Below are positions 120 through 20,186 of a stretch of 20,774 nucleotides of DNA, piece by piece. Source of the stretch: a virus; IMG/VR virus record IMGVR_UViG_3300025889_001163, positions 1 to 20,774 of that record; one strand, 5' to 3'. The position numbers and the translations under genes are program-made. The notes below the pieces were generated by a model. The model was not told the origin of the DNA. It searched no databases and saw only the letters and a list, made by a program, of their open reading frames with translations. Position 1 is the stretch's first letter, and the number at the start of each line of letters is the position of its first letter.

Positions 120-3100
120 ATGGCTAATGACTTTAATGTTAATGAATTTAAACTAAAAGACCCAGTACGTAATATCGGAGATGGATTACAAGAACCCATT
201 AAAGATAGTACGCCTGGGTTTTTTCAGTCTTTAAAGAATCCAATAGACCTTTGGAGAGAAGAATCATTACCTGCATCATTGTATCAATGGATCTCAGGTA
301 ACACTAAAAAAAAACAAGCTCAAGAAGCATACGATTATTTAAGAAACAATCCAGATAAACGTGGTGGTAAATTCTACCAAGAAGCAGAACGAATAATGAG
401 TCGTTTTGGTTATTTGTTAGATGAAGGGCCAATGAACATAGACCTAAAAGAAGTTGGGAATATGATGAAAGCCAACCCTAAAATGTTTGGTGCTGAACTT
501 GTAAACATGATGATGGCAGATCCATATTTATTGTTTATGCCTATGGGTTGGAGTGCATTAGGTAGAGGTGTAGTAAATAGTTTAAGATTAAAATACTCTA
601 AAGCATTTACTATGACTAGGCAAAAACCTAAGTTATTAAAATTAGCTCAACAAGAAAATGTAGCTAACTTAAAAGTAGGTGCGTTTGCCACACTAGCAAC
701 ACCCTTTGTATTTTCTACAGTATGGCAAGGATCTGAAGATAGAACATTAGATCCTAAAAGAACAACTATAGAGACTACTGTAGGTGCAACAGCAGGAGCT
801 GTTATATCTGTAGGATTTGCAGGTATGAGTGCTGCAGCAAGTAGAGCTCTTAGTATACCTAAAATTAGAACAGATAGTGCTACAACTAAAGTATTAAAAG
901 ACAATGGTGTAGATCCAAAAAGATTAATAGAAAAAACAGAAAATGGTAGCTACAAAAGTGTAGATGATTTATTAAAAGAATTAAAAAAAGAAGTTAAAGA
1001 TTTAGAAGATCCAGTTAAATTTAATGCAGTAGCAGCAGAAATTACATCAGCAATGAGACCAGCTATTGAAACTGGTTGGGATATGGCAGTTAATACTGCA
1101 GTTAAAGCTAGTGCAATCGGTGGAGTTGTAGGAGCAGCACAATTTCTTACAGCAGATGATGAAAAACTTGTAGCAACAGCTAAAGGATTTGGAGCAGGTG
1201 CAGCCTTATATGGTGCAGCTAAAATACTAGGTAGAAATTTTGGTAAAGTAGATAATGAAATAGCATTAGCTGGTGAATCAGCATTAGATGCTATGAAGTT
1301 TGGTACAGTTAAAATAAATACTGCAGCTCAAAACTTATCTAATAAAATTAAAGAAGCATTACCAGATGCTATAGATTCTAGACGTAAAGTATTTTATTAC
1401 ATTACTAAAGCTAGTGTAGATCCTGATACATTTGAATTTAATCCAAAGTTAGGTGCTATACCAGCAAGTAAACTTACAGCTAAAGAACTAGAAGTTGCTA
1501 AAACTGTAGAAAAAATATTTAAAGATTATAATAAAATTCTTGGTGAAGAAGGTAGTCAGTTGTTTATGAATCAAAGAGCTAACTACTTACCTTTAATGTG
1601 GGATCATTATAATCATAAACAGCAACCATTTAGATTTTCATCTGAGTTTGATAAACAAGTAGCTGGGCCATCAGGTAGATTTCAATTTAATAGACGTGGT
1701 GTATTTGCAGATATAAACGCAGGTTTAGTTAAAAAATATAAAATACGTCCTGGTATGGATGATCCTGCAGAATTAGTTAGAGTATATGGTTTTGCTGCGT
1801 CTAAAGCATTAGCTACTAGATCTTTAATTACACATTTGGAAAAACATAAAGTTAATAACAAAGCTCTTATGTTTAGATCTGTAAAAAATAATGTAGACAT
1901 GAGAGACTACGATGAATTTATACATCCTTACTTTGAAGGTAAAGGAGCTGTATTTGTTCATAAAGGTATGCATAGATCATTACGTATGGTGTTTGATGCT
2001 ACTGAAGAACAAGCATTTATGGGTGCATTGTTTACAACTAACCTTATGATGAAAAGATTAGCTGTTGGATTTTCTTTTTTTCATGCAGGTGCTCTAGTAG
2101 AAAGTATGTTATTTGCAGGTAACAAACTTAATTTTATTAAAAAAACTTTAGATCCTAGAAAAAAACCTGAATTATTAGAGATGATTAATAATCCTAATAA
2201 AACTATTACAGAATTTCCAACTGCAATAGAACAATTAAAAGCAGCTGGTTATACTGATGTAGCAAGATTTGCACAAGGTTCTGGTTTACAAATTACTACT
2301 CCTGAAGATATAGGTTTTGATAGATTCTATTATAACTTAAGAGGTATAGATACTTTCTTAAAAAATCATTTTGGTATTTCTTCTGGTGGACAAGCAGAAA
2401 AAGTATTTAGATGGTTTGATAGAATTACATGGGATAGAGTATTTACTGCAGCTAAACTACATACATTTTTACAAGTATTAGATTCACCTAAATTAAAAGG
2501 TGTACCAAACACTTTAGTCATTCAACCTGGCGATACAATAGGTCAGATATATGCTAAAGCAAGTAAAGCAGCACAGTTTACTAATGATGCATTTGGTGGA
2601 CAAAACTGGGAACAAGTAGCGAACAGAATAAGAACACCTTGGGTTAAACAATTAGCACAAACTACATTACGTCCAGGATCTAGAGGATATATGCAATTGT
2701 TATTATTTGCTCCTGATTGGACAATATCTAACATAAGAATTATTGCTAAGTCTTTACCAGCTTTTGAAAGCGATGAAGGTCTTAGAAGAATGTATCAATA
2801 CTATTTTGCAAGAGCTGCACTTACATACGCAGCTGCAGGATCTGCACTTAACTATATATTTAGTGGTCACTCTATATTAGAAAACACAGATCCAACTAGA
2901 ATTGACTTAGGGAATGGTCAAGTATTAACTTTCTCTAAACAATTGATGGAACCTTTCCATTGGATAACAGATCCACAATCTACAGGTCTTAAAAAGATTG
3001 GGTCTTTACCAAGAACAACAATAGAAGTATTAACTAATAAAAAATACTTGACTACTAAATGGAGTCCAAACATCACTAAAAAAGATGATGATGCTATTGA

Positions 3101-3338
3101 GAAAGGTTTATCTATAGGAGGTCATGTTGGTAAAAGATTTTTACCTATTTGGCTGCAACAAGCAACAGCTTCAATAGAACAAGGTTTGCTAAAAGATGGT
3201 CTATCTTTAGACTTAGCAGCAGACACTTCTGTTGATTTTGTACTAGGGCAATTAGGTCACCCTAGATACCAAGGGCCTAGATATACACAATACAAAACGA
3301 AAGGGTTAGTAAGGTCTCCTTACGAAACATTATTCTAA
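120..3338 (+). CDS. Very large putative internal virion / DNA-ejection protein (1072 aa)
   Basis: This is by far the longest gene in the window, and no enzyme motif is visible. Several Gly/Ala-rich, membrane-compatible stretches are seen near residues 187-200, 220-240, about 325-350, about 358-373 and about 895-915. They are separated by long soluble, mostly helical, Lys-rich segments. The size and the pattern of scattered hydrophobic patches match internal virion proteins of short-tailed phages, which are ejected and form a conduit across the envelope; this is inference by architecture and position. It begins right after the preceding stop and ends in a TAATG overlap with the next gene. A plausible ribosome site is the GGAGG at 97-101, but it lies about 18 nt upstream, so coupling to the upstream gene is likely. 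A tail protein or a polymorphic virion structural protein remains possible. Confidence 0.6.
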   Translation: MANDFNVNEFKLKDPVRNIGDGLQEPIKDSTPGFFQSLKNPIDLWREESLPASLYQWISGNTKKKQAQEAYDYLRNNPDKRGGKFYQEAERIMSRFGYLLDEGPMNIDLKEVGNMMKANPKMFGAELVNMMMADPYLLFMPMGWSALGRGVVNSLRLKYSKAFTMTRQKPKLLKLAQQENVANLKVGAFATLATPFVFSTVWQGSEDRTLDPKRTTIETTVGATAGAVISVGFAGMSAAASRALSIPKIRTDSATTKVLKDNGVDPKRLIEKTENGSYKSVDDLLKELKKEVKDLEDPVKFNAVAAEITSAMRPAIETGWDMAVNTAVKASAIGGVVGAAQFLTADDEKLVATAKGFGAGAALYGAAKILGRNFGKVDNEIALAGESALDAMKFGTVKINTAAQNLSNKIKEALPDAIDSRRKVFYYITKASVDPDTFEFNPKLGAIPASKLTAKELEVAKTVEKIFKDYNKILGEEGSQLFMNQRANYLPLMWDHYNHKQQPFRFSSEFDKQVAGPSGRFQFNRRGVFADINAGLVKKYKIRPGMDDPAELVRVYGFAASKALATRSLITHLEKHKVNNKALMFRSVKNNVDMRDYDEFIHPYFEGKGAVFVHKGMHRSLRMVFDATEEQAFMGALFTTNLMMKRLAVGFSFFHAGALVESMLFAGNKLNFIKKTLDPRKKPELLEMINNPNKTITEFPTAIEQLKAAGYTDVARFAQGSGLQITTPEDIGFDRFYYNLRGIDTFLKNHFGISSGGQAEKVFRWFDRITWDRVFTAAKLHTFLQVLDSPKLKGVPNTLVIQPGDTIGQIYAKASKAAQFTNDAFGGQNWEQVANRIRTPWVKQLAQTTLRPGSRGYMQLLLFAPDWTISNIRIIAKSLPAFESDEGLRRMYQYYFARAALTYAAAGSALNYIFSGHSILENTDPTRIDLGNGQVLTFSKQLMEPFHWITDPQSTGLKKIGSLPRTTIEVLTNKKYLTTKWSPNITKKDDDAIEKGLSIGGHVGKRFLPIWLQQATASIEQGLLKDGLSLDLAADTSVDFVLGQLGHPRYQGPRYTQYKTKGLVRSPYETLF

Positions 3339-8133: not shown

Positions 8134-8901
8134 CTATTTAAAAGCATTTTGCCAAACGTTTTTTGCATATATTCTAGATGGTTCATTATCTGATTTACCC
8201 CATCTAAAGTTATCCATAGTTAATGGAAACATTTTAACTATGTCCTCTTTTGTTTTAGCAATATCCAAGATATGTTCTATATGTTTCATAGCTTGTATAA
8301 TGGTCTCTAAATGACCCTCTCTGCCTTCCATATCTACGCTGTAAACGTCTTTGTACGAACAATAAAGCAATGCAGTCGGTTTATTGAAAAGGTCTTTGTA
8401 GAGGGCTTGTTGACGCAAATCAGCGTCTTTTGGGTACCATCTGCTATCAATAGCACCAGATTTAAGTCTTTTTATGTAAGCAGTAGCTTTAGTATCTATG
8501 ATTACATCTTTAAACTCAAAGTCAGTTTTACCTATAACATCATATTTTAAGCCATATTTCTCACCAGGTATTTGCTTTTCATTCTGATAAGAAACAATTT
8601 TACCAAATTGTGGTAGTTCTTTAACAAACTGATTAGCAATAATACCAGACCAAAGGCATTCGTCATCTGACTCATCACCTTCTAGTTTTAGGTATTCATT
8701 TTTTGCGTAATCTATGATAGCTTCTTCATCAGTGATTTGGTTTTGCAAAGCATGTTCTGCTGCAGCTTCAGCAGTACTGCCCATTATCATTCTGGCATTT
8801 GCTTTGGATTCAAAATCATACAAGTTATTGATAATCCAATAGGGTGGACTGTCAATAAAACTATTAGTTTTTGAAGCACTATGTCTATATTCAATGTTCA
8901 T
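8134..8901 (-). CDS. PD-(D/E)XK nuclease of the RecB/Cas4-like exonuclease group
   Basis: The start at 8901 (MNIEYRHSASKTNSFIDSPP) is preceded by AAGGAG at six bases; a 10-residue longer frame from 8931 lacks this. The product has 255 residues. The visible core motifs are G41-x-x-A-E-x-x-x-E-H50, GKTD at 124-127, IIDTKAT at 134-140 (D136, K138) and the Q-x-x-x-Y motif at 164-168 (QQALY). This full set is diagnostic of RecB/Cas4-family metal-dependent nucleases, which resect DNA ends. It is the first gene of the minus-strand block and is followed by the SSB-like gene, so the pair resembles a phage recombination or DNA-end processing unit. No annealase was recognised beside it. Cas4-type Cys clusters are absent. 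Confidence 0.86.
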   Translation of the reverse strand: MNIEYRHSASKTNSFIDSPPYWIINNLYDFESKANARMIMGSTAEAAAEHALQNQITDEEAIIDYAKNEYLKLEGDESDDECLWSGIIANQFVKELPQFGKIVSYQNEKQIPGEKYGLKYDVIGKTDFEFKDVIIDTKATAYIKRLKSGAIDSRWYPKDADLRQQALYKDLFNKPTALLYCSYKDVYSVDMEGREGHLETIIQAMKHIEHILDIAKTKEDIVKMFPLTMDNFRWGKSDNEPSRIYAKNVWQNAFK

Positions 8902-8913
8902 GTTTTTCTCCTT

Positions 8914-9222
8914 ATGGTTAATAATATTCAAAAGTATTGTAGTTTATCTTATAATGTATCATTAGATATATTAAAAGGTAAAAGAACTGTTGGTAATAGT
9001 AACGAATATAAAATATATAATTTATGTATTTTACTTTCTTGGCTATTGCACCCTACACAAGTGTATGGGTGTAAGAGCACTATTGCTCGTTTGCATAATT
9101 GTAATAAAAACAGAGTTTATAGATTAAATAATTTATATAATAAAAACAAAAAATTTAGATCTTTTGTTGATAATGCAATAGAAAATTATAAAGTATCTTA
9201 TGCGTCAGATAGAAAAACCTGA
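8914..9222 (+). CDS. Stand-alone DnaA domain IV-like DNA-binding protein
   Basis: Read from the ATG at 8914, the product has 102 residues. Its first part lines up without gaps with the C-terminal domain of bacterial DnaA. NNIQKYCSLSYNVSLDILKGKR corresponds to the stretch of E. coli DnaA that begins [20 protein letters not shown]. After a helix rich in Leu, STIARLHNCNKNRVYRL takes the place of the E-I-G ... R-D-H-T-T-V signature helix-turn-helix, but the R-D-H-T core has diverged to N-K-N-R. No AAA+ domain is present. The start is only 12 bases from the divergent nuclease start and lacks an obvious ribosome site; no later in-frame ATG fits. The end overlaps the next gene by 23 nt. The protein could bind DNA as a regulator or recruit host replication. 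This is an alignment by eye. Confidence 0.5.
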   Translation: MVNNIQKYCSLSYNVSLDILKGKRTVGNSNEYKIYNLCILLSWLLHPTQVYGCKSTIARLHNCNKNRVYRLNNLYNKNKKFRSFVDNAIENYKVSYASDRKT

Positions 9223-9700
9223 GTTAATATCTACAATTTTAGACAAACGTAAAGTATGGTTAAATATACGTGAGTCTCGTTTAATGTATATGTTTCATAG
9301 AAAGCTCATATCTATTGAAGAATATGAAGCTGGATCTAGGTATCGTCTTATGTGTGAACTTCAAGGTGGTGGAACTGGCAATGTTCTTAAAGAACGTATT
9401 GATGGTTCTAGCACAGACTTTATTACATCATCTCTTGGAGCTGCACTAGCAGTCAAAGATGTTGATGATGAAATAGGCAAAAGACTTTCTAATATTATGA
9501 AGTTGTTTTGTCATTATAATTTTGGTATCATTGAGATAGCACATATGTTAAGTATGTCAGAACGCAGAGCATCTAACAACGTACATGAAGGACTATCAAG
9601 TTTAGCAATTTATTATGGCTACAAAAAAGTGCACAATACTATCAGAGGACAAGGCACAAAGAATCAAAGACAAAGAGTACCTAAAGTGGGTAGCATCTAA
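9200..9700 (+). CDS. DUF6456-like helix-turn-helix DNA-binding protein (candidate late regulator)
   Basis: The product has 166 residues. The region from about 28 to 140 follows the DUF6456 type of proteobacterial HTH proteins. RLMYMFHRKLISIEEYEAGS is followed by RYR, then a glycine-rich loop, ALAVKDVDDEIGKRLSNIMK, and a sigma-region-4-like helix-turn-helix, GIIEIAHMLSMSERRASNNV, ending LAIYYGY. Such domains are found in alphaproteobacterial and phage proteins, where an antiterminator or activator role is often suspected. Its position in a short plus-strand regulatory operon fits a switch protein. It overlaps the DnaA-like gene by 23 nt and the HNH gene by 86 nt. The last 25 residues are basic and disordered and lie over the HNH start. 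HTH is likely; the exact family is moderately supported. Confidence 0.6.
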   Translation: MRQIEKPELISTILDKRKVWLNIRESRLMYMFHRKLISIEEYEAGSRYRLMCELQGGGTGNVLKERIDGSSTDFITSSLGAALAVKDVDDEIGKRLSNIMKLFCHYNFGIIEIAHMLSMSERRASNNVHEGLSSLAIYYGYKKVHNTIRGQGTKNQRQRVPKVGSI

Positions 9701-10037
9701 TCCTTGCATACTTTGCCAAGACACGAGATGTCAAGCTCATCATATTACTTTTGCTATGCCTAGAGGTTTCTCACAAAAAGTTGGAGATCAATATACTGTA
9801 CCTTTATGTTTTCCTCATCATCATCAATTACATACAAATGGTATGAGTGAAAAAGATTTTTGGATTAAATTAGACATAGATGCTATCGAAATATGTCGTA
9901 GATTTTATGACCATTACCACAATATGTGGAAAAATAAGAACTTTTTTTATGATGATTCTATGTTATGGCGTACTGTGTACGATGAACTTGTACCTAAGAT
10001 GCAAAATAACATTGATTTTTTAATGCAACCCAAATAA
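9615..10037 (+). CDS. HNH-type nuclease of the DUF968/Ref-like group
   Basis: The product has 140 residues. The motif row is clear: W25-V-A-S-N-P-C31-x-x-C34, AHH at 41-43, then G-x-x-Q-K-V-G-D, P-L-C65-x-x-HHH at 68-70, H73 and DFW at 81-83. The Cys pairs hold zinc and the His cluster forms the nicking site. The same order occurs in DUF968 and in the RecA-dependent nuclease Ref of phage P1, where it follows a W-x-x-x-x-P-C-x-x-C start. The ATG at 9615 gives an 86-nt overlap with the HTH gene and no better start is seen. A role in recombination, packaging-linked nicking or host DNA damage is possible; the neighbouring exonuclease/SSB unit favours recombination. The His-rich helix is unusually dense. 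Confidence 0.82.
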   Translation: MATKKCTILSEDKAQRIKDKEYLKWVASNPCILCQDTRCQAHHITFAMPRGFSQKVGDQYTVPLCFPHHHQLHTNGMSEKDFWIKLDIDAIEICRRFYDHYHNMWKNKNFFYDDSMLWRTVYDELVPKMQNNIDFLMQPK

Positions 10038-10071
10038 CTATCAGAGATATCCTCGCCAGAGGTACGTAAAT

Positions 10072-10356
10072 ATGACTAAGATTTTAAAGTTTCCAAAAAG
10101 CAAACAACCTTATTCAGAGACATTTCTTACTAATGTAAAGCCAGAAGCTATTGGTGATTTTATTAAAGGTCAAAATCCTAAAATGTCAGTTAGAGCTGCA
10201 GACGCAATGGCTCTTGCAATTATTTACAGTACATACTTACAGTTAGTATTTGATGAAGAAGGTCATGATGTACCTTCTAACATTATGGATGCATTAGAAG
10301 AAAATGATCATTCAACTTTTATATGGGCTGTAGATGACAAAAAAACGTTACATTAA
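10072..10356 (+). CDS. Small hypothetical protein (94 aa)
   Basis: The product has 94 residues. It has a basic start (MTKILKFPKSKQPYSETF), a helical middle with MSVRAADAMALAIIYSTYLQ, and an acidic end. It is separated from the HNH gene by 34 nt, where GAGG forms a candidate ribosome site about nine bases before the ATG. The 3' end overlaps the next gene by 23 nt. No domain is recognised. The Ala-rich helix could dimerise. Confidence 0.55.
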   Translation: MTKILKFPKSKQPYSETFLTNVKPEAIGDFIKGQNPKMSVRAADAMALAIIYSTYLQLVFDEEGHDVPSNIMDALEENDHSTFIWAVDDKKTLH

Positions 10357-10630
10357 AAAGAAAATATCTTTTTCTAAAGATTCTCATACTTTACCTTATG
10401 ACAAATACAGAGTTGAGTGGGTTGACTGTGTAAGTGATTCAGGTTGGGCTGAGAAAAAAGAATTTACTAATATGAAATTAGCTAATCCTGTTAACGAAGG
10501 TTGGCTGTTCTCTAAAGACAAACATTCTATTAAATTGTTTGCAGCATACATTGAAGAAGATGGATCTTATACTTATGGAGATCGTACTAATATTCCTACA
10601 TCTTGGATTGTAAAGATGACTAAAATTTAA
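10334..10630 (+). CDS. Small conserved phage protein with DS-GW ... GWL pattern
   Basis: The product has 98 residues. The pattern YRVEWVDCVSDSGWAEKKEF, then LANPVNEGWLFSKDKHSIKLF, and finally IPTSWIVKM is a known layout of small phage proteins (W-x-D ... S-G-W ... GWL ... I-P-x-x-x-I) that I have seen in many tailed phages but that has no assigned function. It is predicted beta-rich. It starts inside the preceding gene (23-nt overlap) and is the last gene before a convergent gap of 32 nt to the next minus-strand reading frame. Confidence 0.62.
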   Translation: MTKKRYIKKKISFSKDSHTLPYDKYRVEWVDCVSDSGWAEKKEFTNMKLANPVNEGWLFSKDKHSIKLFAAYIEEDGSYTYGDRTNIPTSWIVKMTKI

Positions 10631-15336: not shown

Positions 15337-15361
15337 ATAATCTCCTTTATTAAAGGGTAAT

Positions 15362-15380
15362 CCCCCTTACTAGAAGGGGG
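15362..15380. terminator. GC-rich hairpin between early genes (attenuator/processing candidate)
   Basis: CCCCCTT (15362-15368) and AAGGGGG (15374-15380) form a perfect seven-base stem with an ACTAG loop. Such a GC-rich stem is exceptional in this AT-rich sequence. It lies in the 58-nt gap between minus-strand genes ending at 15395 and starting at 15336. On the minus strand it is followed by ATTACCCTTT, with no U tract, so a partial terminator, RNase site or protective 3' structure is likely. Confidence 0.55.
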
Positions 15381-15394
15381 GTGTACCTGACTAT

Positions 15395-15592
15395 TTATTT
15401 AGGTAATTTAGCTAATATCTCATTTACCTGAGCTTCTAGCTTACTGATTCTGATTTTATCAGCATTTTCTTTTAACCAAGTATTTCTATCTTTATACTTA
15501 GGATTGCCAAGAGCTATCTGCTCATCGACATATTGTTTTCTTTCTTCTGGACTTTTAGTGTCCATGTACGATTCAAATGTACCTTGTGTCAT
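15395..15592 (-). CDS. Hypothetical protein (65 aa)
   Basis: The product has 65 residues and begins MTQGTFESYMDTKSPEERKQ. KYKDRNTWLKENADKIRISK is followed by a short coiled coil ending NEILAKLPK. GGAG lies about six bases upstream, just after the previous stop. It is a charged helical protein without a recognised family. It is the last gene before the hairpin at 15362-15380. Confidence 0.6.
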   Translation of the reverse strand: MTQGTFESYMDTKSPEERKQYVDEQIALGNPKYKDRNTWLKENADKIRISKLEAQVNEILAKLPK

Positions 15593-15603
15593 ATATACTC
15601 CTA

Positions 15604-15792
15604 TTAGTTATTGTTATTAATCAACGATTGTTTGATACTCGTAACAAACGATTGTTGTATTCTTTTAGCCTCCTTATCCCTTTCTATTAGAATAGAATTT
15701 TCTGGGAATGGAAACTCGTAATTGATAAGCTGATAGTTACTATGCTTATCTGTATCTCCCTCTATTTGTTCTTCTATGTTGTAAGTTATCAT
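15604..15792 (-). CDS. Hypothetical acidic protein (62 aa)
   Basis: The product has 62 residues. It begins MITYNIEEQIEGDTDKHSNY, then QLINYEFPFPENSILIERDK, and ends with an Asn-rich tail. TAGGAG lies six bases before the ATG and includes the stop of the upstream micropeptide, so the two are likely coupled. It is acidic in the first half and helical in the second. No family is recognised. Confidence 0.6.
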   Translation of the reverse strand: MITYNIEEQIEGDTDKHSNYQLINYEFPFPENSILIERDKEAKRIQQSFVTSIKQSLINNNN

Positions 15793-15800
15793 GTTATCTC

Positions 15801-15860
15801 CTATATGATTGCGATTATACCTAGTACAACGACCAGGTATATCGCATTTTGGACTATCAT
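15801..15860 (-). CDS. Candidate 19-residue transmembrane micropeptide
   Basis: Between the first and next larger early genes a 20-codon frame starts at the ATG at 15860, sharing its A with the upstream TAA. It ends with TAG at 15801-15803, which is part of the ribosome site (TAGGAG) of the downstream gene. The peptide is MIVQNAIYLVVVLGIIAII, a single hydrophobic helix and nothing else. The stop and start overlaps on both sides, and the purely hydrophobic content, argue for a real gene. It could equally be a translation relay without a functional product. No similar known peptide is recognised. Confidence 0.45.
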   Translation of the reverse strand: MIVQNAIYLVVVLGIIAII

Positions 15861-16126
15861 TATTTATCCAGTTTATTGACTATTATCTTTTGAATAATGT
15901 CAGACTTCTTTTCTAGGATATCAACTACTCGTTGCATATCTTTATCTGACATACTATCAAACTTCTTTAATAGATCGCTATATGTACCTACTAAGTCAAA
16001 CTTAACAGTTACATTTACATTTTTCGGAAAAGGATTCATATTAGTACTATTGTACTTATCTATCACTTTATCCTTAACACTTGATATACTGTCTATAGTG
16101 TTATTCCATACTGTATTGATGTTCAT
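15860..16126 (-). CDS. First early gene: hypothetical helical protein (88 aa)
   Basis: The product has 88 residues. It reads MNINTVWNNTIDSISSVKDK, then NPFPKNVNVTVKFDLVGTYS, and a charged C-terminal helix pair (DMQRVVDILEKKSDIIQKII). It is the promoter-proximal gene of the minus-strand block. AAGGAG lies six bases before the ATG, and ten bases upstream of that is the leader hairpin at 16148-16179. First early genes in phages are often strongly expressed host-takeover factors; function here is unknown. Confidence 0.62.
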   Translation of the reverse strand: MNINTVWNNTIDSISSVKDKVIDKYNSTNMNPFPKNVNVTVKFDLVGTYSDLLKKFDSMSDKDMQRVVDILEKKSDIIQKIIVNKLDK

Positions 16127-16147
16127 ATTATCTCCTTTATTGGTTAT

Positions 16148-16179
16148 GTATCTACCTCACAATGTGTGGATATAGATAC
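16148..16179 (-). promoter_or_regulatory. 5' leader hairpin of the early minus-strand transcript
   Basis: GTATCTA (16148-16154) pairs with TAGATAC (16173-16179), and inside it CC-x-CAC pairs with GTG-x-GG around a small loop. This makes a long stem of about 32 nt with one side bulge. On the minus-strand RNA it would sit ten bases upstream of the first AAGGAG. Such a 5' stem can stabilise mRNA or act as a protein-binding or translation-control site. The near-DnaA box lies in its right half. Confidence 0.55.
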
Positions 16180-16247
16180 TATTTGTATTGCTTTAATATT
16201 ACTAACAATCAGGTTGTATAATAATATCAATTACTTAAATCATTATC

Positions 16248-16291
16248 GGTAATCAACTAATCAATAGACAAGCTAGAGTTAGCTAATTACC
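16248..16291. repeat. Imperfect inverted repeat, operator-like (GGTAATnAnCTAAn)
   Basis: The left arm GGTAATCAACTAAT (16248-16261) and the right arm GTTAGCTAATTACC (16278-16291) are inverted copies with 11 of 14 bases matching, centred 30 bases apart (about three helical turns). This is the pattern of two half-sites bound by a dimeric or cooperative repressor, such as the HTH protein at 14063-14488. The candidate early promoter overlaps this region. Confidence 0.5.
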
Positions 16292-16309
16292 AATATATAA
16301 TAACAACTT

Positions 16310-16338
16310 ATATTGCTGTCACTTGGGACAGCCAATAT
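16310..16338. repeat. Hairpin with ACTTGG loop
   Basis: ATATTGCTGTC (16310-16320) and GACAGC-C-AATAT (16327-16338) form an 11-base stem with one bulged C and a six-base loop. No T-run follows on either strand, so termination is unlikely. A single-strand origin-type hairpin, protein-binding site or RNA leader element are possible readings. Confidence 0.5.
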
Positions 16339-16371
16339 CAGTTGACTAACAAAGACTTAAGATAATCAACA

Positions 16372-16414
16372 ACAATTATAATTGTGTCTTACAAAGACAA
16401 ATACAATTATAATT
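16372..16414. repeat. Compound dyad with duplicated ACAATTATAATT
   Basis: ACAATTATAATT occurs at 16372-16383 and again at 16403-16414, 31 bases apart. Each copy is itself nearly palindromic. Between them TGTCTT (16385-16390) and AAGACA (16394-16399) form an inverted repeat with a 3-nt loop. The whole block can fold as one long interrupted stem. TATAAT is contained in both copies and, by symmetry, on both strands. It may be a double operator with bidirectional promoters or an origin unwinding element. Confidence 0.55.
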
Positions 16415-16469
16415 AAAACAAATAAAAGACAGCGAACAACAGTGAGCTGACAACTAAACAACATAAAGA

Positions 16470-16484
16470 AAAACCAGGGGTTTT
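16470..16484. terminator. Small symmetric hairpin AAAACC-AGG-GGTTTT
   Basis: AAAACC and GGTTTT form a six-base stem around AGG, with T-rich flanks on both strands, so it could be a weak bidirectional terminator insulating the early and late transcripts. The stem is AT-rich and short, so the effect would be modest. Confidence 0.35.
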
Positions 16485-16502
16485 ACAATCACCCTCAATG
16501 AC

Positions 16503-16519
16503 TTTGACGTAATGTCAAA
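16503..16519. promoter_or_regulatory. Inverted repeat TTTGAC-gtaat-GTCAAA before the packaging genes
   Basis: TTTGAC (16503-16508) and GTCAAA (16514-16519) form a perfect six-base dyad with a five-base centre, directly before the extended -10 candidate at 16520-16528. An operator in this place would block or recruit polymerase for the plus-strand packaging genes. Confidence 0.5.
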
Positions 16520-16528
16520 TGTCATAAT
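16520..16528 (+). promoter_or_regulatory. Extended -10 promoter candidate for the packaging genes
   Basis: TGTCATAAT matches the extended -10 form TGnTATAAT with one change. No -35 box lies at the standard distance; TTGACG is only 13 bases upstream. An activator-dependent promoter would fit this. It is about 40 bases upstream of the first packaging-side gene. Confidence 0.4.
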
Positions 16529-16568
16529 AGGGGGGTTTTGTACAGCACCATAACAAGAAAGGCACATA

Positions 16569-16835
16569 ATGAGCATACCATTTCACGCTGGTAGAATAGG
16601 CGTATCGTTCTTAGAGAAGCTATACAAAGGTAAAAGCTTTCTAGGTAAAAAGACTGGTGATGCAGTTAAGCATCTATCAGCTAAAGGACACACAAAAACT
16701 GCAAAATATACTAACCTAGCAGCACAAAACGTGAACAAAGGCATAAACTACGCAGATAAAACTATTAGAAAGTACCCTAAATCAGCATCAGCTGTAGGTG
16801 GTGCAATAGCTTTTGATATATTTGATGACGACTAA
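16569..16835 (+). CDS. Small basic protein with hydrophobic C-terminal patch (88 aa)
   Basis: The product has 88 residues. It begins MSIPFHAGRIGVSFLEKLYK, has a Lys/Gly/Thr-rich middle and an Ala/Gly-rich hydrophobic end (SASAVGGAIAFDIFDDD). AAAGG lies six to seven bases upstream. It is the first gene of the plus-strand packaging block. Similar composition (basic body, Gly/Ala segment) is seen in the proteins at 17759-18046 and 18256-18612, suggesting a minor virion or membrane-associated set. No family is recognised. Confidence 0.6.
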   Translation: MSIPFHAGRIGVSFLEKLYKGKSFLGKKTGDAVKHLSAKGHTKTAKYTNLAAQNVNKGINYADKTIRKYPKSASAVGGAIAFDIFDDD

Positions 16836-16969
16836 TGGCTAAGCAGAAGTTTGTCCATTTCGTACCTAGGGAAAAACCCAAAAAAAGACGTGGAATCCAC
16901 AAAAAATCGAAATCGAAGTCGGAAAAACTACAGCAAAAGCTAAAGAGATATAAAGGACAAGGCAGATAA
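16835..16969 (+). CDS. Tiny basic conserved phage protein ending GQGR (44 aa)
   Basis: The frame runs from the ATG at 16835, sharing one base with the previous stop (TAATG), to TAA at 16967-16969. It reads MAKQKFVHFVPREKPKKRRG, has a run of Lys/Ser, and ends KRYKGQGR. The pattern K-F-[VI]-H-[FY]-V-P, K-K-R-x-G-x-H-K-K and Y-K/R-G-Q-G matches small proteins I recall from marine phages, placed in the same gene string. Probably DNA- or RNA-binding or a virion component. Function unknown. Confidence 0.68.
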   Translation: MAKQKFVHFVPREKPKKRRGIHKKSKSKSEKLQQKLKRYKGQGR

Positions 16970-17109
16970 TGAAAAAAATACCATATAGCGTTTTTAAAAT
17001 TGACATGAAAAAACAATTAGCTAAAAAGGAACAGTTTACAAAAGACTTGAAATCTAAAAAATTTCGAAAAACAACTAAATTACTAGAATACGCTAAAAGG
17101 TTTATATAA
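16969..17109 (+). CDS. Tiny basic protein (46 aa)
   Basis: The frame from the ATG at 16969 (TAATG overlap) to TAA at 17107-17109 reads MKKIPYSVFKIDMKKQLAKK, then KDLKSKKFRKTTKLLEYAKR and FI. It is almost half Lys plus hydrophobic residues in a helix-like pattern. It is part of the same chain of overlapping minigenes. No family is recognised. Confidence 0.6.
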   Translation: MKKIPYSVFKIDMKKQLAKKEQFTKDLKSKKFRKTTKLLEYAKRFI

Positions 17110-17111
17110 TT

Positions 17112-17261
17112 ATGGCAAAACGTGGACTATACGCAAACATTCATGCTAAGCGAAAGCGAATCAAGGCAGGATCAAACGAAAAAATGCGAAAAAAAGGTGC
17201 GAAAGGTGCACCAACTGCTAAACAATTTAAACGAGCAGCCAAGACTGCTAAGAAAAGATAA
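17112..17261 (+). CDS. Conserved phage miniprotein MAKRGLYANIHAKRKRI type (49 aa)
   Basis: The frame from the ATG at 17112 to a TAA sharing its last A with the next ATG (17259-17263) gives 49 residues. MAKRGLYANIHAKRKRIKAG, then KMRKKGAKGAPTAKQFKRAA is a very recognisable conserved phage motif, found in tailed phages of many proteobacteria near head or packaging genes. It is rich in Lys, Arg and Gly, with G-A-P-T as a fixed turn. No function has been assigned that I know of; DNA condensation or capsid interior binding is plausible. Confidence 0.75.
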   Translation: MAKRGLYANIHAKRKRIKAGSNEKMRKKGAKGAPTAKQFKRAAKTAKKR

Positions 17262-17512
17262 TGGCAAAGACAGCAGCATGGCAGCGTAAAGAAGGTAAGA
17301 ACCCAAAGGGGGGTTTGAATGCCAAAGGTCGTGCTAGTTATAAAAGACAAACTGGGGGAACGTTAAAAGCTCCTAGCAAAAAAGTAGGAAACAAACGTAG
17401 AGCATCGTTTTGTGCTAGAATGAAAGGCATGAAACGTAAGCTAACCTCTGCTAAGACTGCAAGAGATCCTAATAGCAGAATAAATAAATCATTAAGAGCA
17501 TGGAATTGTTAA
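17261..17512 (+). CDS. DUF6321-like conserved phage protein (83 aa)
   Basis: The product has 83 residues. The signature positions are W7, KNPKGGLNAKGRASYKRQTG, then a Lys-rich loop, RRASFCARMKGMKRKLTSAK, and the terminal NKSLRAWNC. This S-F-C-x-R-M-x-G-M ... S-R-I-N-K-S-L-R-x-W-N-C block is the hallmark of the DUF6321-type protein that is widespread in phages, including cyanophages and pelagiphages. Two Cys are near-invariant. Its role is unproven. It overlaps the previous gene by one base. Confidence 0.8.
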   Translation: MAKTAAWQRKEGKNPKGGLNAKGRASYKRQTGGTLKAPSKKVGNKRRASFCARMKGMKRKLTSAKTARDPNSRINKSLRAWNC

Positions 17513-18612: not shown

Positions 18613-18916
18613 AGATAAAACAGAAGAAGCAAAAACAGATAACCATGGTGGTAAAAGACCTGGAGCTGGTAGACCTGCTGGTGCAAAGACTAAAAAGAAT
18701 TGGAAGTCTATGGAGGAAATGGCTGTAAAATACCAACATTCTCCTTTGGATTATTTATTATCTGTGTTAAACAATCCTATGAGCTCACCTGAACGTAAAA
18801 TGTATGCAGCCGAAAAAGCAGCACCATTTGTTCATGCGAGGTTAGCATCAACTAATACTAAAATAGGAACAGATGAACCAATCGCAATCAAAGTCTCTTG
18901 GCAAAAAGACGACTAA
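18605..18916 (+). CDS. terS: Terminase small subunit (DNA recognition) candidate
   Basis: The start at 18605 (MVEDKTEEAKTDNHGGKRPG) is chosen because the upstream part of the same frame reads poorly and an 8-nt overlap with the previous gene is the local habit. The product has 103 residues. It has GGKRPGAGRPAGAKTKKN (AT-hook-like, typical of terminase small subunits) and then HSPLDYLLSVLNNPMSSPER, AAEKAAPFVHARLAS. It would bind viral DNA and dock the large subunit. Direct adjacency to terL supports this. The 44-nt overlap with terL suggests coupled translation. Confidence 0.78.
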   Translation: MVEDKTEEAKTDNHGGKRPGAGRPAGAKTKKNWKSMEEMAVKYQHSPLDYLLSVLNNPMSSPERKMYAAEKAAPFVHARLASTNTKIGTDEPIAIKVSWQKDD

Positions 18917-20186
18917 GAAAAAAGTCGCTGAAGTAGAAATACCCTATAAGCCTAGACCTTACCAACAAGACGTACACAATGCACTTAAAAGATTTAGTGT
19001 TCTTGTATGTCATAGAAGATTTGGTAAATCAGTACTAGCTATTAACGAATTAATTAAAACAGCAGCAGATAAACAAAGATCTCTTTGTGCATTCATAGCT
19101 CCAACTTATCGCCAAGGTAAAGCTATCGCTTGGGAATATTTAAAATATTATACTAAACCACTAATGCATTTTGGTGGAACTAGAAATGAAACAGAATTAA
19201 GAATAGATCTATTTAATGGATCACGTATTCAAATCTTTGGAGCAGACAATCCAGATAGTATTCGTGGAATGGGCTTTGATAAAGTTGTAATGGACGAATA
19301 TGCTATCATGTCTCCAAGAGTATGGACAGAAATTGTAAGACCAGCAGTATCAGATAAACTAGGATCAGTTTTATTTATAGGTACGCCAATGGGACATAAC
19401 CAGTTTTGGGAAGTATTTGACTTTGCACAACGTGGTCATAAAGATTGGTATGGTAAGTTATATAGAGCATCTGAAACACAAGTAATACCAGATGACGAGT
19501 TAGAACAAGCTCGTGCTATAATGACTGAAGAACAATACCAACAAGAATTTGAGTGTTCATTTACAGCAGCAGTATCAGGAAGTTATTATGGCAGACTGAT
19601 AACTAAAGCAGATAAAGAAGAACGAATAGGGGAAGTACCTGTAGACGAAAATGCAGGAGTGGAAACCTGGTGGGATTTGGGGATAGGAGATTCAACTGCA
19701 ATATGGTTTGCACAAAGAATAGGAACCGAAATTCATTTGGTAGACTATTATGAAACTTCAGGTGAATCATTAGCACACTATGCAAATATATTAATGGAGA
19801 AAGATTATGCTTATAGCAGACATATAGCTCCACACGATATAATGGCACGTGAGCTTGGAACAGGTAAGTCAAGATTAGAAGTAGCAAACGAATTAGGCAT
19901 TGACTTTGAGGTAGCACCTAAGTTAGAAGTAGATCATGGTATTGAATCTGTAAGAAATACTTTACCTAATTGTTACTTCGATAGAGTTAAATGTAAAACA
20001 GGATTAGATGCTTTGAGACAGTATCGAAAACAATGGGATGATAAAAACCAAGTGTTTAAGAATAAACCTCTCCATGACTGGTGCTCACATGCAAGTGATG
20101 CATTTAGATATGGATGTGTTCATGATCCTATTGATACAACAGAATGGGATAAACCAATTAATATAGATACAAAATACGTAGTATGA
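18873..20186 (+). CDS. terL: Terminase large subunit (packaging ATPase and nuclease)
   Basis: The product has 437 residues. The ATPase half shows the Walker A variant CHRRFGKS at 46-53, Walker B VVMDE at 138-142 and the coupling motif LFIGTP at 167-172. The nuclease half has acidic residues in WWDLGIGDS at 266-274 (D268), LVDYYE at 289-294 (D291) and HDWCSHASDAFRY at 401-413 (D409), the usual RNase H-like triad. It drives DNA into the procapsid and cuts concatemers. The start overlaps the small-subunit gene by 44 nt, and the TGA overlaps the portal start (ATGA at 20183-20186). Length is in the normal range for this class. Confidence 0.95.
   Translation: MNQSQSKSLGKKTTKKKVAEVEIPYKPRPYQQDVHNALKRFSVLVCHRRFGKSVLAINELIKTAADKQRSLCAFIAPTYRQGKAIAWEYLKYYTKPLMHFGGTRNETELRIDLFNGSRIQIFGADNPDSIRGMGFDKVVMDEYAIMSPRVWTEIVRPAVSDKLGSVLFIGTPMGHNQFWEVFDFAQRGHKDWYGKLYRASETQVIPDDELEQARAIMTEEQYQQEFECSFTAAVSGSYYGRLITKADKEERIGEVPVDENAGVETWWDLGIGDSTAIWFAQRIGTEIHLVDYYETSGESLAHYANILMEKDYAYSRHIAPHDIMARELGTGKSRLEVANELGIDFEVAPKLEVDHGIESVRNTLPNCYFDRVKCKTGLDALRQYRKQWDDKNQVFKNKPLHDWCSHASDAFRYGCVHDPIDTTEWDKPINIDTKYVV

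Follow-up and report, generated by a model that had tools for sequence, protein, structure and literature searches.

Evidence for a three-hairpin leader RNA and a hairpin element of fixed spacing between the divergent gene blocks of uncultured, probably marine phages

The late leader of phage lambda consists of pR'-6S RNA-tR', a stretch of ~200 nt that precedes the late operon and ends at a terminator, and the hairpin promoter of coliphage N4 sets a hairpin and a conserved sequence a fixed distance apart. The N4 promoters are used by the virion RNA polymerase of that phage (PMC4496689). The put RNA of phage HK022 consists of stem-loops in the early leaders that bind RNA polymerase and suppress its pausing and termination, and this effect depends both on an unpaired base of stem II and on how distant the pause site is (PMC9378689). 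Candidate structured RNAs have also been found in marine metagenomes by comparative genomics (PMC2864571, PMC2704228). The locus described here resembles put in having a putatively cis-acting phage leader with stem-loops at the head of an operon and in a divergent control region, and in its late hairpin, in which one base is unpaired and whose distance to a conserved G6TT sequence (Box B, below) is fixed. Unlike put, which is ~70 nt long and has two stems, the leaders here are about 150 and 260 nt, and unlike the similar putL and putR they are dissimilar to each other; the likeness is drawn from the published description of put. RNAs of the put type are nascent transcripts with two stem-loops downstream of a phage promoter, and they suppress termination by way of the beta' zinc-binding domain of RNA polymerase. 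With the marine candidate RNAs our locus shares a discovery based on covariation, an origin in uncultured, probably marine sequences and a position upstream of genes, whereas no Rfam 15 family is credible for the leader described here.

The DNA that was analyzed, referred to below as the window, is a 20.8-kb piece of an uncultured and probably marine phage, taken from a record of 20,774 bases that is classed as linear, i.e., as a fragment; the host of this phage is presumably marine as well. Its large terminase gene (TerL, 18873-20186) has its best identity, 49%, to the TerL of Pelagibacter phage HTVC106P, and close TerL relatives (85-99%) are known solely as IMG/VR contigs. Dozens of IMG/VR relatives share the same divergent layout around a gap whose bounds are exactly those originally proposed, 16127-16568, with a leftward reading frame (15860-16126) and a rightward one (16569-16835) diverging from it. 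The leftward block encodes many small proteins and a Cro/CI-like helix-turn-helix (HTH) protein. The rightward block of relative G003 (38.9 kb) encodes TerS, TerL, portal and major capsid proteins, and runs from the right-hand element described below through terminase and portal to capsid and, provided that the contig is a circle, continues to an ejection protein. Such gene content suggests early expression of the leftward block and late expression of the rightward one. No RNA polymerase, DNA polymerase or DnaA was recognized among the proteins tested. The gap had been described as very AT-rich, but its composition is not unusual (GC 0.305 for 15501-16500 as compared to 0.27-0.37 elsewhere); its description as a control region was correct, in that the two blocks of this phage family diverge here and conserved elements belonging to each of them are found in it. 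A scan for consensus sigma-70 promoters gave fewer matches than were obtained in shuffled sequences and was uninformative. The features of the region are as follows.

15860-16126, minus strand: open reading frame, first gene of the leftward block in this phage
16127-16568, no strand: divergent intergenic control region, defined by the diverging reading frames and the same layout in relatives
16148-16179, minus strand: motif 3, the first dyad, a hairpin directly upstream of the leftward ribosome-binding site, with stem changes that keep the pairing
16193-16230, minus strand: motif 2, a hairpin with a conserved UUGAU in stem and loop, its outer pairs varying only by minus-strand wobble types
16243-16296, minus strand: motif 1, the second dyad, a 20-bp hairpin defined by pairing, covariation, wobble asymmetry and covariance model R1
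16304-16344, no strand: SL-A, the third dyad, adjoining motif 1, defined by conservation, pair counts and folding
16374-16414, no strand: SL-B, the fourth dyad, an AT-rich hairpin not conserved past the closest group
16478-16494, plus strand: Box A, GGGTTTTACAATCACCC, consensus GGGTTT-N7-ACCC, invariant in relatives found via Box B alone
16498-16525, plus strand: SL2, a hairpin with one unpaired base and with the fifth dyad inside it, defined by 22 clusters below 75% identity and by chimera folding
16529-16545, plus strand: Box B, AGGGGGGTTTTGTACAG, consensus G6-TT-WNN-TACA, defined by conservation and its fixed distance from Box A
16569-16835, plus strand: first gene of the rightward (packaging and structural) block, encoding a small basic protein; in relatives the first start codon lies 25-106 nt downstream of the Box B G run (where a start at +2 was predicted, the evident ATG stands further on)

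Several features of the flanking blocks may be recorded here. The first genes past the right-hand element (16569-17260) encode tiny basic proteins that differ between close relatives, the TerL downstream being >90% identical, and the 83-aa protein that follows (17261-17512) looks like a free-standing domain: its matches are to several much larger PHROG proteins (phrog_727, phrog_3477 and others) and are confined to their C-terminal ~80 residues. The leftward block contains a small rightward island (8881-10630) with an HNH-type gene and a weakly sigma/HTH-like protein, as well as a strong C5/G5 hairpin (CCCCCTTACTAGAAGGGGG, 15360-15385) between two small reading frames. For the 1072-aa protein at the left end (120-3338), neither Pfam nor PHROG gave a match, nor did tblastn against cultured phages, and its relatives are encoded by >100 IMG/VR contigs.

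All five dyads originally predicted for the gap exist, and they are slightly longer than had been claimed (16148-16179; 16243-16296; 16304-16344; 16374-16414; 16498-16525). They exceed chance, as judged from the folding z-scores of the gap halves: folded as RNA, the left half has z = -3.9 on the minus strand and -0.7 on the plus strand, and the right half has z = -6.5 on the plus strand and -3.5 on the minus strand. Four of the five are kept in relatives, either through compensatory change or in position, and that at 16374-16414 is confined to the close group of the window. The dyads are real, and most of them are deeply conserved.

The left-hand stretch, 16148-16296, is well supported as a three-hairpin leader RNA of the leftward transcript, the leader ending just before the ribosome-binding site. 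Motif 1, built of 17 bp, an internal loop (CUC/UUGA), 3 bp and a terminal loop of 5-8 nt, was found in 59 distinct versions. Among 27 non-redundant relatives, 97.0% of the cells of its pairing table are standard pairs on the minus strand and 14 of the 20 pairs have changed on both sides; its covariation score of 0.600 lies above all shuffles (0.277) and above all controls in which the partners were slid (0.141 or less). Read on the plus strand, the non-Watson-Crick pairs of motif 1 comprise 157 A.C against 7 G.T (wobble counts throughout take only pairs flanked by Watson-Crick neighbors), and since A.C on the plus strand is G.U on the minus strand, the structure is selected in the leftward transcript. 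From motif 1 to the start codon, the minus strand is the more stable one in 25 of 28 leaders (mean difference -6.2 kcal/mol, p = 1e-5). Covariance model R1, which scores 66.6 bits on the minus strand, finds one copy per genome, always antisense to TerL, and also detects the copy in G001 (46.5 bits), a genome outside the model-building set. For motif 2, RNAalifold recovered the outer stem alone. The stem of motif 3 occurs in relatives as GTATCTA/TAGATAC, TACCTA/TAGGTA, GTGC/GCAC or GCCTGA/TCAGGC, with pairing kept in each. The UUGA side of the internal loop of motif 1 is invariant; it and the UGAU that the loop of the following hairpin contains could be protein contacts.

The exact motif 1 pattern is absent from 84,980 bacterial and archaeal genomes, the same pattern being positive in 95 known loci, and motif 1 was not found in the whole records of HTVC106P and Venkman. 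Searches of Rfam 15 gave no credible match in this region of the window, where the best matches are far below gathering scores, and no match in nine relatives at the gathering cut-offs. The left leader is well supported as a new leader RNA outside Rfam. No intrinsic-terminator-like sites were predicted on the minus strand inside the leftward block, so that a need for antitermination is not visible there.

The strand asymmetry and RNA-like character of motif 1, the strongest of the dyads, also speak against the suggestion that the gap is a replication origin opened by DnaA or a phage initiator. This suggestion is in keeping with a large divergent gap that contains dyads and with a strand skew that flips sign near it, but the sign change coincides with the change of gene strand, and because the skew merely follows gene strand it cannot discriminate for or against an origin. 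The near-consensus DnaA box on which the original prediction drew sits inside the motif 3 hairpin and is neither special nor conserved: it is one of 29 sites in the window with at most one mismatch (a reversed control pattern gives 19), two perfect boxes lie elsewhere in the window, and the same place reads GTCTGGATAT, GAGTGGATAT or GTAGATAT in relatives. The gene at 8914, taken at the time for DnaA-like, did not match DnaA in any of Pfam, PHROGs, NCBIfam and the PDB sequences, no iterons were found in the gap, and no initiator was recognizable among the proteins tested. With neither a conserved DnaA box nor iterons nor a recognizable initiator to support it, an origin at this place seems very unlikely.

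The right part of the gap ends in a second element, 16478-16545, in which Box A and Box B flank SL2 and which is present in about 70 distinct versions. Box B has the conserved form GGGGGGTT..TACAG or, written with its core, AGGGGGGTT-WNN-TACA, and a search with Box B only returned Box A at the same distance, except for two chance matches and one version that is 1 nt longer. When the spacing was left free (31 values), 61 of 90 distinct matches were found at exactly 58 nt and 9 of 90 at 59 nt. Removal of GC-rich contigs as likely chance matches left 71 distinct interiors; the G+C cut-off also dropped one genuine version (L330), and a likely chance match (L343) was left out of later steps. The interiors fall into 22 SL2 types with <75% identity to each other, and because the register of the stem shifts between groups, chimeras, each consisting of the 5' half of one type and the 3' half of another, were chosen over mapping on an alignment. 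Native interiors have a mean folding energy of -10.0 kcal/mol as compared to -4.3 for the chimeras, a difference which indicates that the two arms of SL2 change together. As a rule, 4 nt separate the hairpin from the Box B G run, and the ACCC is able to pair with the G run of either Box A or Box B; SL1, a hairpin surrounding Box A, reaches significance in just 10 of 63 versions and is not general. In all contigs that extend to TerL, the element is found on the TerL strand, 1.3-3.3 kb upstream of that gene, and it is present in 27 of the 30 TerL contigs with enough upstream sequence. It has no blastn match in cultured phages, and a text search did not find it in the whole HTVC106P and Venkman records. 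In some subfamilies (L096, L211, L221, L227 and L317), the stretch from Box B to the first start codon contains 1-3 extra short C4-5/G4-5 hairpins with TTTA after them. One contig that carries the element once, L241 (IMGVR_UViG_3300030098_002339, 88,284 bases), is more than twice the usual ~39-41 kb and may be a chimera, a concatemer or a larger relative.

The strand on which this second element acts is less readily assigned. The internal pairs of SL2 are Watson-Crick in 358 of 369 cases, with 9 A.C and 2 G.T, and neither wobble pairs nor folding energy single out one strand; the pairs of SL-A are likewise nearly all Watson-Crick and without strand bias. Motif 1, only a few hundred bases off in the same genomes, serves as an internal control that makes the lack of wobble in SL2 noteworthy. 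Either both strands matter, as they would in a DNA-level hairpin or in transcripts running both ways, or G.U pairs are not tolerated. Two indirect facts favor a rightward leader: ahead of Box A the plus strand is A-rich in 59 of 59 relatives, a bias shared with the rightward genes, and in 21 of 24 the gain in folding stability over shuffled sequence is larger for the plus strand than for the minus strand. Transcription of the element as a rightward leader RNA is supported by these facts, if not proven. The almost pure Watson-Crick pairing and fixed length of SL2 are not typical of a flexible RNA leader and would be consistent with a site at the DNA level, and the late element is described here as a rigid hairpin element that may be DNA or RNA in nature.

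Among DNA-level readings, the original prediction offered an operator array or repressor switch; on this reading, the palindromes would be dimer sites of a phage repressor or activator, with half-sites that differ as the regulator differs. The Watson-Crick pairing of SL2 and SL-A without strand bias would suit such sites, and the Cro/CI-like gene of the leftward block could supply a regulator; in relative L082, however, the HTH protein is 99% identical to that of the window and the arms of SL2 are wholly different, from which it follows that SL2 is not the operator of that protein. This comparison of operator conservation covers SL2, whose arms are moreover offset by an unpaired base that a symmetric dimer does not need, and the G.U asymmetry of motif 1 speaks against an operator at that dyad. 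For the dyads tested, then, an RNA-like motif 1 and an SL2 that differs in L082 leave the repressor switch unsupported, and we regard it as unlikely, although a DNA-binding regulator may act elsewhere in the gap.

A packaging site (cos or pac) recognized by terminase would account for the constant place of the late element upstream of TerL and TerS on the same strand, and its rigid spacing and Watson-Crick-only arms also suggest a DNA-level unit. Covarying hairpin arms are not needed by a cos or pac site, however, and contigs read through the element, with nearby contig ends scattered over ~150 bp and no pile-up at a single base; packaging is an unlikely explanation. The element also recalls the lambda late leader in having a hairpin directly upstream of the first late gene, and an intrinsic terminator or attenuator might be read from a hairpin followed by G6T4, with an ACCC that can pair with either G run. 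In contrast to lambda, no Q-like gene was identified, and the T run varies (positions 8-10 after the G run) whereas TACA is kept. An intrinsic terminator was rejected on the ground that no conserved U tract directly follows the stem, and termination or attenuation at this hairpin appears improbable. Finally, the fixed distance between the late hairpin and the conserved Box B, together with Watson-Crick-only stems that usually end at the same short distance from the G run, is reminiscent of the N4 hairpin promoters. Unlike those, the hairpin here is longer and bulged, no phage RNA polymerase was recognized among the large proteins tested, and genomes of ~39-41 kb lack any protein near 3500 aa; a hairpin promoter for a phage RNA polymerase is therefore extremely unlikely.

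The conserved structures, the strand assignment of the left leader, the fixed spacing at the right and the genomic position of both are observed directly, and from them we consider it rather probable that the gap is a divergent control region from which two opposed transcripts, each with a structured 5' leader RNA that acts in cis, head the operons on either side. The leftward and probably early transcript would begin with the three-hairpin leader, and the rightward transcript, with its terminase and structural genes, would begin with a leader of spaced hairpins that ends in Box A, the covarying hairpin and Box B. Each leader, standing at the start of a long operon, would act in cis on the nascent transcript to which it belongs, most probably by altering the pausing or termination of RNA polymerase in the manner of HK022 put RNA, which is the closest likeness such a mechanism could claim; alternatively, an RNA-binding protein that governs early and late expression may bind to the leader. 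Binding of regulatory proteins to the leaders, or protection of the mRNA, is possible. Since no phage RNA polymerase was recognized among the large proteins tested, the host enzyme is the likely target. It is conceivable, though a rather long shot, that a widespread family of such phages controls both divergent operons by RNA, the two leaders acting on the host RNA polymerase itself with no antiterminator protein of the phage involved; this would constitute a second RNA-only system of elongation control, unrelated to HK022 put.

The observation of dyads was thus sound, and it has become more interesting than first stated, with a new leader RNA on one side of the gap and a rigid hairpin element on the other, for both of which a function in gene control may be suggested. 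These phages form an uncultured group that is common in metagenomic virus collections. In the late element, rigid spacing is combined with arms that are swapped wholesale while their pairing is kept, an unusual pattern that calls for an explanation in terms of DNA or RNA. The left leader, which covaries, occurs in a single copy and is always antisense to terminase, offers a handle for finding and classifying such phages, as well as a concrete target for work on the timing of early and late transcription in phages with no recognized polymerase or antiterminator.
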